Assembly (NCBI GenBank): GCA_002699125.1
Contig: PABI01000088.1
Coordinates: 1-64,000, forward strand
Direction of reading: 5' to 3'
Length of the DNA: 64,000 bases
Origin: Anaerolineaceae bacterium
Lineage (GTDB): Bacteria > Chloroflexota > Anaerolineae > Promineifilales > Promineifilaceae
The translations under genes were made by a program, and so were the position numbers. Every line of letters begins with the position of its first letter. The stretch's first letter is position 1. The notes under the pieces are model-generated. The model was not told where the DNA came from. It searched no databases and saw only the letters and a program-made list of their open reading frames with translations. Positions 18,236 to 34,666 of this stretch are shown here, piece after piece.

Positions 18236-18237
18236 AC

Positions 18238-18266
18238 TTGACACTCCCCGCTCCCGGTGCTATCAT
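18238..18266 (+). promoter_or_regulatory. promoter of the pheL-pheST operon
   Basis: TTGACA (18238-18243), 17-base spacer, TATCAT (18261-18266). The expected transcript start is near 18273, only about 3 bases before the leader-peptide ATG. Confidence 0.8.
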
Positions 18267-18275
18267 GCGCCCATC

Positions 18276-18356
18276 ATGAACCAACAGCGATTTTTTAGCT
18301 TCTTCTTTTTTATGGACACCCGCGCCGCGCTTGCGCCGGAGATTCGTTCTGCCTGA
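18276..18356 (+). CDS. pheL: Phe-rich leader peptide of the pheST attenuator
   Basis: A 26-codon reading frame beginning MNQQRFFSFFFFMD and ending at TGA 18354-18356. Six of eight consecutive codons (6-7 and 9-12) are Phe. Ribosome stalling here when Phe-tRNA is scarce would favour an antiterminator and raise expression of the Phe-tRNA synthetase genes downstream; E. coli pheM works this way. A strong terminator follows 33 bases later. GCCGCG in the leader (18324-18329) can pair with CGCGGC (18394-18399) in the terminator stem, a plausible antiterminator. No Shine-Dalgarno precedes the ATG, which lies almost at the predicted transcript start, so initiation may be leaderless. It is too short to be found by usual ORF calling. 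Confidence 0.85.
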   Translation: MNQQRFFSFFFFMDTRAALAPEIRSA

Positions 18357-18388
18357 GTAGAAGCAGCGCTAAAAACGGACTCTTTGTG

Positions 18389-18418
18389 AAAGACGCGGCC
18401 AACCCCGCGTCTTTTTTT
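18389..18418 (+). terminator. attenuator terminator upstream of pheS
   Basis: AAAGACGCGG (18389-18398) pairs with CCGCGTCTTT (18405-18414), loop of 6, with a T-run 18412-18418. This is a textbook intrinsic terminator placed between the Phe leader peptide and pheS. Confidence 0.92.
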
Positions 18419-18424
18419 GTGTCT

Positions 18425-18523
18425 GGCTTTTTCGGAGTTTAAATGATCCGATTCGCCCCGAAAAAGCCTTAGCCAATTCCAGAAATCTGCTCAATTTTGG
18501 CGTTTATTATTTCTGGAATTGGC
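18425..18523. repeat. paired-hairpin element, third locus
   Basis: Hairpin 1: GGCTTTTTCGG (18425-18435) with CCGAAAAAGCC (18458-18468), loop 22. Spacer TTA. Hairpin 2: GCCAATTCCAGAAAT (18472-18486) with ATTTCTGGAATTGGC (18509-18523), loop 22. The layout matches the elements at 14040 and 16741, but the stems are unrelated. Confidence 0.75.
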
Positions 18524-18568
18524 CACTTTGGGCAACTGCCGCTAAACTTTTTGCTTGGGAATTGTAAG

Positions 18569-18642
18569 CCACAGAGAACACAGAGTTTTAGGAGTAAAAT
18601 CCGCAAGCGCCATCTGCGTAATCTGTGTCAATCTGCGGATAA
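18569..18642. repeat. dispersed CACAGAG/ATCTGCG repeat before pheS
   Basis: CCACAGAGAACACAGAG is followed by ATCTGCGTAATCTGTGTC and AATCTGCGGATAA, ending about 10 bases before the pheS ribosome site. The same words occur at 55100, 56351, 58037 and 60073. Confidence 0.65.
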
Positions 18643-18664
18643 AAACAACATTAGGAAGTTAATT

Positions 18665-19690
18665 ATGCTAGACGAACTGGAATCATTGTACAAAGCATCT
18701 CTAGACAAGCTGGAGGATGTGGACAGCACGGCCGTTCTTGACGAATGGTACCGTGAAACTTTAGGTCGTAAAGGTAGCATCTACCTGCTGACGCGCCAGG
18801 TGGGCCAGCTTAGCGCTGAGGAACGGCCGATTTTCGGCAAACGGATCAATGTCGTCAAAAGTGAGCTGGAAGCCGCCTACGAAGCGCGCCAGGCGGAGCT
18901 GAAAGCGGCCGAATTGGCCGATAAGATCGCCAGCTCTGCTATTGATGTGACTTTGCCAGGACGGCCGTTAACCACCGGCGGACTGCACATCATTACCCAA
19001 ACGCTGCGCGACATCTACCGCATCTTCGGCGACATGGGTTTCCAAATTTACCGTTCGCCCGATGTGGAAACTGACGCCTATAATTTTGAGCTGCTCAACT
19101 TCCCGCCGCACCATCCAGCGCGAGAAATGCAGGACAGCTTCTACACCGAAAACCCGGAGGTGATTCTGCGCACCCACACCAGCGCCGGACAAATTCGGGC
19201 CATGCGCGAATATCATCCCGAACCGGTGCGCGTGATTTTGCCCGGCATGTGTTACCGCAACGAGCAGATCACTACCCGCAGCAGCATCCAGTTCACCCAG
19301 GTAGAAGGGCTGGCTGTGGGCACCAACATCACCTTCGCCGACCTCAAAGGCACGCTCACCGAGTTTGCTCGCCGCCTCTATGGGGCCGACCGGCAAACTC
19401 GCTTCCGCGCCAGCTACTTCCCCTTCACCGAACCCAGCGCCGAGATGGATATCACCTGCTTCCTGTGCAATTCAGAAGGCTGCCAGCTGTGCAAATACAC
19501 GGGCTGGCTGGAGATTTTAGGCAGCGGCATGGTCCATCCTACCGTTTTACGCAATGGCGGCTACGATCCGGAAGTGTACACAGGCTTTGCCTTTGGGCTA
19601 GGGCCGGAGCGCATCGCCATTCTCAGACACGGCATCGACGATATTCGCCTGTTCTGGAACAACGATTTGCGCTTTTTACAGCAGTTCTAA
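18665..19690 (+). CDS. pheS: phenylalanyl-tRNA synthetase alpha subunit
   Basis: Class II aminoacyl-tRNA synthetase subunit that carries the active site. The 341-residue protein has an N-terminal coiled coil (about 1-90), motif 1 region ITQTLRDIYRIFGDMGF, the PheS hallmark FPPHHPAREMQDSFY, motif 2 with PVRVILPGMCYRNE, and motif 3 FGLGPERIAILRHGI. The frame is open from 18497, but TTAGGAAG and ATG 18665 give the family N-terminus. It is transcribed after the Phe attenuator and followed by pheT. Confidence 0.97.
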   Translation: MLDELESLYKASLDKLEDVDSTAVLDEWYRETLGRKGSIYLLTRQVGQLSAEERPIFGKRINVVKSELEAAYEARQAELKAAELADKIASSAIDVTLPGRPLTTGGLHIITQTLRDIYRIFGDMGFQIYRSPDVETDAYNFELLNFPPHHPAREMQDSFYTENPEVILRTHTSAGQIRAMREYHPEPVRVILPGMCYRNEQITTRSSIQFTQVEGLAVGTNITFADLKGTLTEFARRLYGADRQTRFRASYFPFTEPSAEMDITCFLCNSEGCQLCKYTGWLEILGSGMVHPTVLRNGGYDPEVYTGFAFGLGPERIAILRHGIDDIRLFWNNDLRFLQQF

Positions 19691-19769: not shown

Positions 19770-22304
19770 ATGCTAGTACCACTCTCATGGCTTAAAGATT
19801 TTGTCACAATTGATAAATCCGTGGCGCAGGTAGACCGCCTGCTGACCAACGCCGGTTTGGAAGTAAAAACCATTGAATACATCGGCATCCCTGGCGCGGA
19901 ACTGGAATGGGACCGCGAACTCATTGTGCTGGCCCATTTGCTCAAGGTAGAGCAGCATCCCAATGCGGACCGGCTGGTGCTGGCCACGGTAGATTATGGT
20001 AACGGCCGCAGCAAAACCGTCGTCACCGGTGCGCCTAACCTGTTCCAATATTTGGAGCAGGGAGACGTCAGCGGCTTGCAGCTGTACTCCCCTTTAGCGT
20101 TGGAAGGGTCAACGTTGTACGACGGCCACAAAGACGGCCGTGTCCAAACCAAGCTCAAAGGACGCGAGCTGCGCGGCATCTACAATGACGCCATGCTCTG
20201 CTCCGAAAAGGAATTGGGCATCAGCGAGGAACACGAGGGCATCATCCTCATCAAAAAGGATGGCCACTCGCCGGACTACAAACCAGGCACGCCCCTACAA
20301 GACGTGCTGGGTGACGCCGTTTTGGAAATAGACATCATCCCCAACATCGCCCGCTGCGCCTCCATGGTGGGCGTGGCCCGCGAATATGCCGCCCTCACCA
20401 ACCAGCCCATCCGCTACCCGGATTATTCGGTGAAGATGGAAGGACCAAAGGTGGACGGCCGTATTCAACTCAGCACCGAAGAGCCCGAACTCAACCCCCG
20501 CTTCGTCGGCTATATCATTGAAGGCGTACAGCAAGTTGCCAGCCCCTACTGGATGCAGTATCGCCTGCGCCTGGCGGGGCAGCGTCCCATCAACGTGGTG
20601 GTAGACATCAGCAACTATGTCATGCTGGAGATGGGCCAGCCCAACCACACCTTCGACTACGACTTCCTGCGCCGCCGCGCCGACGAATACAATCCCGACG
20701 GCCCCATCCAGATCATCACCCGCCTGCCTGAAGACGGCGAGACGCTTACCACGCTGGACGGCATCACCCACAAGCTGGAGCCGTACAGCATTTTGGTAAC
20801 AGACCCGCTGGGTAACCTGAGCTTGGGCGGTGTGATGGGTGGTGAAGATAGCGAAATCAAACCGGAAACAGAAAACGTCTTTCTAGAAGCGGCCGCCTGG
20901 AATTTCATCAACATCCGCCGCACCAGCACCAAGCTGGGCATCCATACCGACGCCGCTTTCCGCTTTAGCCGGGGCGTGCATCCCAGCCAGGCGCTGCTGG
21001 GTGCGCAACGCGCCGCCGACCTGCTGCGCCGTTTGGCCGGCGGCACCGTCGCCGATGGCGTCATCGACTACTATCCCAATCCACCGGAGCCTGTGGTGGT
21101 GACGTTAAAACTGGAGTACGCTCGACGGCTCAGCGGCCTGGACTTAAGCGGAGCCGAGATGGCTGAGCTGTTGGAACGCCTCGAATTTGCCGCCGAAGTA
21201 CACGACAATCATCTTATCGTCACCGCACCCGATCACCGCATGGACATTGAAGGGCCGCATGACCTGGTGGAAGAGATTTGCCGCATGTACGGCTACGACA
21301 ACATCCCCTCCACCGTGCTGGCCGATGTGCTGCCACCCCAGCGGGGCAACCCCATGCTGGAGCAGGAAGAGCGCATCAAAGATGTGCTGGTGCAGGCTGG
21401 CCTGCAAGAATTGATCACTTTCCGCCTTACCTCAAAAGCACAGGAAGCCAAATTGATTCCCAAGGGTTACCCATCTGGGCCGGATGATCGGCCATATGTC
21501 ACCCTGACCAACCCCCTTTCCGCCGAACGGGCCGCCATGCGCCACAGCTTGCTGGCTTCTGTGCTGGATGTGGCTACGACCAACAGTCGCTACCAGGATC
21601 GGCTGGCGCTGTTTGAAGTTGGCCCCATTTTCATCGTTGATGAGGATGAGATTTTGCCTACGGAGCAAACGCGCCTCTCTATTTTGCTGAGCGGGCAGCG
21701 CAGCATCACTGGCTGGCAAAATGGCGAATCGGGCACGTACAACTTCTTCGATTTGAAGGGCGTTCTGGAGACGTTGTTCAAAGAGCTGCACCTCAGTATC
21801 AGCTACGAACCGCTGGAGCACCCCACCTACCGTCCTGGCCGCACGGCACGGCTGCTGCTGGGTGAAAACCAGGTGGGCGTGATGGGCGAGCTGCATCCGC
21901 TGGTAGTGGAGCAGTTTGACCTCCAATTCGAGGAAGAGCAGCCAGTCATCGCCGCGGACATCGATCTGGATGCCCTAATCGAGCATATTCCCTCACACTA
22001 TCCGTACGATCCCATCTCGCCATACCCGGCCGTGCATGAGGATATCGCCGTGGTAGTGGACAAAGGGATTGCGGCAAAGGAAGTTGAAGAGGTCATCCGC
22101 AACTCTGGTGGCTTCCTGCTCAAAGACGTAGAACTGTTCGATCTGTACGAAGGTGAGCAAATTGGTGCAGGCAAGAGAAGCCTAGCTTATCATCTCACCT
22201 TCCAGGCTCCCGACAAAACCCTCACCGACAAAGTGGTGCAAAAAAGCCGCAGCAAAATTATCAGCCAGCTGAAACACCGGCTAAACGCCCAGCTCCGCGA
22301 ATAA
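19770..22304 (+). CDS. pheT: phenylalanyl-tRNA synthetase beta subunit
   Basis: An 844-residue partner of PheS. Domains in order: MLVPLSWLKDFV N-terminus; EMAP-II-like tRNA-binding domain (about 40-150) with HPNADRLVLATV; B3/4 editing domain (about 215-400) with INVVVDISNYVMLEMGQPNHTFD; B5 (about 410-485); catalytic-like core with VEEICRMYGYDNIP; and a C-terminal FDX-ACB anticodon-binding domain (about 750-844) with SPYPAVHEDIAVVV. The bacterial long form is complete. TTGGAG precedes the ATG. Confidence 0.97.
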   Translation: MLVPLSWLKDFVTIDKSVAQVDRLLTNAGLEVKTIEYIGIPGAELEWDRELIVLAHLLKVEQHPNADRLVLATVDYGNGRSKTVVTGAPNLFQYLEQGDVSGLQLYSPLALEGSTLYDGHKDGRVQTKLKGRELRGIYNDAMLCSEKELGISEEHEGIILIKKDGHSPDYKPGTPLQDVLGDAVLEIDIIPNIARCASMVGVAREYAALTNQPIRYPDYSVKMEGPKVDGRIQLSTEEPELNPRFVGYIIEGVQQVASPYWMQYRLRLAGQRPINVVVDISNYVMLEMGQPNHTFDYDFLRRRADEYNPDGPIQIITRLPEDGETLTTLDGITHKLEPYSILVTDPLGNLSLGGVMGGEDSEIKPETENVFLEAAAWNFINIRRTSTKLGIHTDAAFRFSRGVHPSQALLGAQRAADLLRRLAGGTVADGVIDYYPNPPEPVVVTLKLEYARRLSGLDLSGAEMAELLERLEFAAEVHDNHLIVTAPDHRMDIEGPHDLVEEICRMYGYDNIPSTVLADVLPPQRGNPMLEQEERIKDVLVQAGLQELITFRLTSKAQEAKLIPKGYPSGPDDRPYVTLTNPLSAERAAMRHSLLASVLDVATTNSRYQDRLALFEVGPIFIVDEDEILPTEQTRLSILLSGQRSITGWQNGESGTYNFFDLKGVLETLFKELHLSISYEPLEHPTYRPGRTARLLLGENQVGVMGELHPLVVEQFDLQFEEEQPVIAADIDLDALIEHIPSHYPYDPISPYPAVHEDIAVVVDKGIAAKEVEEVIRNSGGFLLKDVELFDLYEGEQIGAGKRSLAYHLTFQAPDKTLTDKVVQKSRSKIISQLKHRLNAQLRE

Positions 22305-34336: not shown

Positions 34337-34666
34337 AAATTCACAAGCGCTGCATACGTGCGGCGCCATAAAAGCAACGATCAGGACGAGTAGCGGCTGA
34401 GCCTGTACCAGAGATTGGAGCGCCACCGGCTGAGAGCCTCCGAAACAAAGACAGCCCCGAAAACCTCCTGAGAGCGACTTCCTGAACAGTAATTTTGAGT
34501 AAGGAAGCACGGCTGGCCCCGTTAACGGCCGTTACAAGGGTAATCCGTCATCGGCTATCCGTAATCGGTAAATAAACGACAATACCGATTACCGTTTACC
34601 GACCACTGATTACCGAATTGGGTGGAACCGCGACGCCGTCGCCCCATAGTGGGCACGGCGTTTTTT
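34337..34666 (+). ncRNA. T-box riboswitch, tRNA-Thr type, controlling asd
   Basis: Stem I base TCAGGA (34381-34386) pairs with TCCTGA (34466-34471). The specifier loop has AGTA (34389-34392) on one side and GAAA-ACC on the other, so the specifier is ACC (34463-34465), a Thr codon. The antiterminator is complete: TGGG (34619-34622), bulge TGGAACC (34623-34629), GCG, loop, CGC, CCCA (34643-34646). The bulge base A34626 would pair with a tRNA ending UCCA, as expected for tRNAs with U73, which include many bacterial tRNA-Thr. The competing terminator is ACGCCGT-C-GCCC/GGGC-ACGGCGT (34633-34661) with a T-run to 34666. Uncharged tRNA-Thr would turn asd on. Between stem I and the antiterminator lies an extra hairpin made of GTAATCGGTA/TACCGATTAC units. 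Confidence 0.9.

Follow-up and report, generated by a model that had tools for sequence, protein, structure and literature searches.

A candidate phenylalanine leader-peptide attenuator with a predicted near-leaderless start upstream of pheST in a Chloroflexota genome, and cognate leaders at other amino-acid loci

Ribosome-mediated attenuation has been described mainly from Proteobacteria and Actinobacteria. The pheST operon of Escherichia coli is preceded by the pheM leader attenuator (Rfam family RF01859, Phe_leader), which has in common with the locus described here a Phe-rich leader peptide, a choice between antiterminator and terminator, and a similar target operon. According to a survey from 2013, the attenuator motifs that Rfam contained at that time may have originated in Gammaproteobacteria (PMC3766115). 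Leader-peptide attenuators that are leaderless have been reported for trpL of Sinorhizobium meliloti (PMC7298713) and for ilvBNC of Corynebacterium glutamicum (PMC11857589), and the poly-Cys sORFs of mycobacteria are likewise leaderless according to the passage of PMC13236596 that cites Canestrari et al. 2020. As in the present case, where the 5' end is a predicted one, these systems have an ORF at or near the 5' end of the transcript and use amino-acid codons to sense supply. They serve single pathways in Proteobacteria or Actinobacteria, whereas the Chloroflexota genome studied here carries such ORFs at seven amino-acid loci, four of them tRNA ligase loci, each with an intrinsic terminator. 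Excerpts of two further papers describe tRNA ligase genes under the control of leader peptides, in some cases in place of a T-box: attenuators at trpS and leuS in Actinobacteria (PMC1262725), and a His leader at hisS paralogs in Firmicutes, reported as a new case in 2010 (PMC2965389). Those leaders concern other phyla and other amino acids, and the excerpts describe no systematic near-leaderless placement. The T-box (RF00230) precedes pheS in related Anaerolineae and responds to the same shortage; it does so by binding tRNA to the leader, whereas the sensor that we propose for pheST would be the ribosome. The attenuation mechanism is already known; what appears to be new is the phylum, together with the breadth of genes involved and the systematic use of a near-leaderless start. 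Our literature search, to be taken as weak evidence of absence as most subscription journals lay outside it, found no leader-peptide attenuation of amino-acid genes in Chloroflexi/Chloroflexota and nothing joining leader peptides with alaS.

The window, a stretch of 64,000 nucleotides that begins contig PABI01000088.1 of an Anaerolineaceae bacterium, is part of an 8.05 Mb assembly. An earlier note on this DNA had described a 26-codon Phe-rich ORF between a promoter and a terminator in front of pheS, an observation that was confirmed (Table 1). The promoter, TTGACA-17-TATCAT with a TG preceding the -10 box, agrees with the consensus at 11 of 12 positions. Since transcription is expected to start 7 nt past the -10 box, the predicted 5' untranslated region measures about 3 nt; the ATG itself (18276) lies 9 nt past the hexamer, and the ORF closes with a TGA at 18354-18356. 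Phe codons fill positions 18291-18296 and 18300-18311, a density that exceeds chance: among 5000 dinucleotide-shuffled versions of 18236-18664, 5 contained any ORF of 10-60 codons with six Phe in eight. The terminator stem (18388-18415), followed by a T-run, sits between the leader ORF and pheS. The range 18238-18664 proposed in the earlier note does contain the element, which stops at about 18418; the remainder, 18419-18664, is the 5' region of pheS. Between terminator and pheS there are also two short dispersed repeats, one of the CCACAGAGAACACAGAG type (18568-18601) and one of the ATCTGCGTAATCTG type (18612-18645), and more than 20 additional copies of these types occur genome-wide. RF01859 can be aligned over its full length, at 18272-18420, with 21.8 bits (E 0.43) and below the gathering threshold of 55, so that the locus is not a member by score. 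It differs from pheM and its family in the near-leaderless start, the sequence, the phylum and the pairing segments.

Table 1. Features of the pheST leader and operon, in coordinates of the window.
Feature	Position	Strand	Remarks
Sigma-70-type promoter: -35 TTGACA (18238-18243), TG, -10 TATCAT (18261-18266)	18238..18266	+	Also in relatives, at the same position
Predicted transcript start and 3-nt 5' UTR (AUC)	18273..18275	+	Placed from the -10 position
Leader ORF MNQQRFFSFFFFMDTRAALAPEIRSA, without space for a Shine-Dalgarno sequence	18276..18356	+	Start distance conserved
Putative regulatory codons Phe-Phe-Ser-Phe-Phe-Phe-Phe	18291..18311	+	Kept in relatives; chance test
Candidate protector strand GCUUCU, inside the Phe codons; partner strand at 18359-18364	18298..18303	+	Weak
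Antiterminator 5' strand GCCGCG(C/U) in leader Ala codons	18324..18330	+	88.6% of cells paired vs 22-52% when slid
Candidate protector 3' strand AGAAGC, right after the leader stop codon	18359..18364	+	
Intrinsic terminator AAGACGCGG...CCGCGUCUUUUUUU	18388..18418	+	5' arm (18392-18398) common to antiterminator
pheS, phenylalanine--tRNA ligase alpha subunit	18665..19690	+	NCBIfam TIGR00468
pheT, phenylalanine--tRNA ligase beta subunit	19770..22304	+	NCBIfam TIGR00472

The named relatives of the window's PheS belong to the Anaerolineae (Chloroflexota); the closest (L059 and L062) are 90-91% identical, and one (L074) is named Promineifilum sp. We located pheS in 52 of 59 searched genomes and read the DNA upstream. 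The window's own family, f1, contributed 29 usable pheS loci, 28 of them readable upstream (L032 begins at pheS). A Phe-run ORF followed by a terminator was present in 27 of these 28, the sole readable locus without the element being L016 in genome G020, and 26 of the 27 bear the TTGAC consensus promoter. The leader ORF starts 6-10 nt past the -10 box in 25 of 26 measured loci, counting L017 and L018, for which spacings of 9 and 10 nt were taken by hand; the exception is L030, with its Phe-proximal ATG about 32 nt downstream. Most of the leader peptides retain an RFFSFFF-like core and diverge elsewhere, and TTT and TTC alternate at the same Phe residue, as would be expected if the encoded residue matters. 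The earlier note had named this comparison among relatives as a check, and the Phe codons proved to be conserved.

The same comparison bears on where the transcript begins. With 2 nt separating the end of the upstream ORF (18235) from the -35 box, transcription could read through into the leader, and the start at 18273 is a prediction. One could therefore envision that attenuation and translation of the leader ORF are real and that they take place on an ordinary, longer transcript from an upstream promoter, that of nusB and the next ORF, in which case the near-leaderless start would be illusory. We regard this as unlikely, since the promoter and the 6-10 nt spacing are conserved in 25 of 26 relatives, a spacing of 8-9 nt is common to seven leaders of the window's genome (taking the first ATG at alaS), and a long transcript, with no Shine-Dalgarno sequence before the ATG, would be expected to translate the leader poorly. 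The proposal of an ATG about 3 nt past the predicted start and lacking a Shine-Dalgarno sequence is in keeping with the spacing in relatives, and it is this promoter spacing that points to leaderless initiation.

Among pheS loci outside f1, a T-box is common at the position of the leader, 8 of 16 scanned loci reaching the gathering score. T-boxes precede pheS in many other Anaerolineae, and the window's own genome has 10, one of them within the window at 34368. A T-box sensing uncharged tRNA-Phe directly, with the Phe-rich ORF as an incidental feature, might thus be considered for pheST as well. Yet no match to the T-box family turned up at 18238-18664, either at the gathering score or with E up to 5, the transcribed leader runs for merely about 145 nt up to the end of the terminator, and the Phe codons are conserved within the ORF; on these grounds a T-box is very improbable here. 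The T-box of the window (34368-34649, + strand, 97.3 bits) lies upstream of the aspartate-semialdehyde dehydrogenase gene (asd).

The segment GCCGCG or GCCGUG, just 3' of the Phe codons, pairs with the 5' arm of the terminator, so that the two structures are mutually exclusive. Pairing statistics were drawn from an alignment of 27 f1 leaders. The terminator helix is paired in 99.5% of alignment cells and includes 4 pairs in which both sides have changed. Covariation in the antiterminator is slight because the alignment columns hardly vary; in L030, where the terminator arm is altered to GAGCACGG, the leader strand reads GCCGUGC, which matches it. The candidate protector helix is paired in 76% of cells, against 42-58% for slid versions, with covariation no higher than in controls. 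An inner hairpin across the stop codon, GAGGUUCGUU...AACGAACUC, was seen in the closest relatives and was dropped, being absent in L014 and others.

Folding of the full-length leader always favoured the terminator, and the leader RNA showed no excess stability relative to shuffles (z -0.62); a switch of this kind would therefore have to be kinetic. We folded transcripts of the 27 leaders truncated before the 3' arm of the terminator, with a ribosome footprint at different positions. The mean capture of the terminator 5' arm by upstream sequence was 0.80 with the ribosome on the Phe codons and 0.40 with the ribosome at the stop codon. Capture was greater in the stalled state in 24 of the 27 leaders, a count that overstates their independence since the sequences are related. 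With no ribosome, mean capture was 0.71; this being close to the stalled state, the energies do not support termination in the absence of translation.

We propose, with a probability of roughly 0.9 judged from sequence, that pheST is under ribosome-mediated transcription attenuation. The transcript would begin about 3 nt upstream of the leader ATG, so that the ribosome would have to initiate at a nearly leaderless 5' end. When charged tRNA-Phe is scarce, it would stall at the Phe codons (18291-18311) and leave GCCGCG (18324-18330) free to pair with the terminator 5' arm (18392-18398) while the 3' arm has yet to be synthesized; with the antiterminator formed, RNA polymerase would proceed into pheST. 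When Phe is plentiful, the ribosome would reach the stop codon (18354) and mask the antiterminator strand, allowing the terminator to form. Regulation would thus run in the direction of higher expression under shortage. As to transcripts that carry no ribosome, pairing between the Phe-codon segment and AGAAGC might sequester the antiterminator strand and lead to termination, a step for which the support is weak.

The pheST leader belongs to a set found across the genome, and that set weighs more than the single site. We scanned the window's genome for the pattern TTGACN-N16-18-TANNNT-N7-10-ATG and obtained 63 matches (60 distinct on recount) versus 21 for the reversed pattern. In seven of them the ATG opens an ORF of 8-59 codons with a terminator behind it, and each of these ORFs carries a codon run cognate to its downstream gene: FFSFFFF at pheST, SAAAAAQ at alaS, YFYFYFF at aroH-aroF, RRRR at argC, YYGSY at tyrS, PVPTRP at proS and KKAKK at lysWX. 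Downstream genes were named from Pfam and NCBIfam, except for lysW and the AroH-type chorismate mutase, which we recognized by eye in translations. When leaders were permuted over genes, a single one of the 5040 assignments, the true one, attained the observed codon score. A control scan with the ATG 15-28 nt past the -10 box (45 distinct matches), judged for codon runs alone, gave four short ORFs with terminators and no codon run. The alaS and argC leaders display the four textbook segments, with CCAGAC and GUCUGG in the leader and again CCAGAC and GUCUGG in the terminator. A further near-leaderless ORF of 27 codons (MMKYNVSLFHNLSICCNRKSLLSGLIA in the window's genome; L216/L250) is conserved in genome G003; it ends at the start of the next gene and has no terminator.

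The set also bears on a third explanation, namely that promoter and terminator serve just to make a small RNA or to hold pheST at a constant basal level, and that the Phe run arose incidentally as U-rich RNA was selected. The pheST leader is indeed U-rich, and its RNA is able to pair with downstream segments; but leaders in front of other genes carry other, cognate runs (Ala, Arg, Pro, Lys, Tyr), for which U-richness offers no explanation, and we give this alternative hardly any credence. The attenuation of pheST through a Phe leader peptide, as first suggested in the earlier note, is now backed by conservation in the family, by mutually exclusive pairing and by six further cognate loci.

Similar leaders were found in relatives. 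Pattern scans of five genomes revealed cognate leaders at tyrS, aroF, argC, lysW and proS in f1 genomes and, in G036, which belongs to another family, a cognate leader at argC. The codon runs of the G036 leuS and metG leaders (L247 and L271) were weak, and these were not counted. We applied a simple promoter rule to the f1 loci and counted by hand: 15 of 20 tyrS loci are preceded by a near-leaderless ORF containing a Tyr run, and 8 of 21 alaS loci by one containing an Ala run. Two alaS matches, L340 (G004) and L341 (G008), have one in-frame TGA each, which may reflect sequencing error, recoding or decay. A search with model R1, built exclusively from pheST leaders, also detected the aroF (E 2.9e-10) and tyrS (E 1.9e-7) leaders of the window's genome, and most f1 genomes have 2-4 copies. 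It also led to clear near-leaderless aroF leaders in G221 and G359, two genomes outside f1; partial matches covering the terminator half alone, and several weak ones from beyond f1, were inspected and for the most part discarded. Because motifs are shared across the pheST, aroF and tyrS leaders, their sequences suggest that the aromatic leaders form one RNA family.

Two pheS loci assigned to other phyla deserve mention. In Desulfobacterales bin36 (CP070746.1; L072:1687-1838), PheS is 73% identical to that of the window and the leader matches R1 (2.3e-11), which would reflect either interphylum transfer or a misnamed bin. In the Acidobacteriota bin Thermoanaerobaculia Co_bin.310 (L102:1773-1896), pheS is preceded by a near-leaderless MDRRLPTYRFFAFFSRSTNATR and a terminator, with a weak match to R1 (E 0.025).

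It is tempting to see in these leaders a near-leaderless attenuator regulon for several amino acids that originated within this lineage of Chloroflexota, separately from the attenuators of Proteobacteria, replaced the T-boxes of pheST, radiated by copying, made leaderless initiation a part of the sensor, and reached pheS loci of Desulfobacterales and Acidobacteriota by transfer. We offer this larger account tentatively, its chances falling somewhat short of even. Seven such loci in Chloroflexota, alongside T-boxes in the same genomes, offer a direct way to study how T-boxes and leader peptides are exchanged for one another. The position of the ATG, a few nucleotides from the expected 5' end, provides a testable rationale for leaderless initiation, which would couple translation of the leader to RNA initiated at the promoter of the attenuator itself.

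A different arrangement was observed at L410, L411 and L412 (genomes G337, G305 and G235), where the aromatic-rich end of an upstream ORF (NFWFGYYFGVNQ) is followed by a terminator in front of pheA/aroH-type genes. These loci are possibly attenuators that use the 3'-terminal codons of another gene for sensing.
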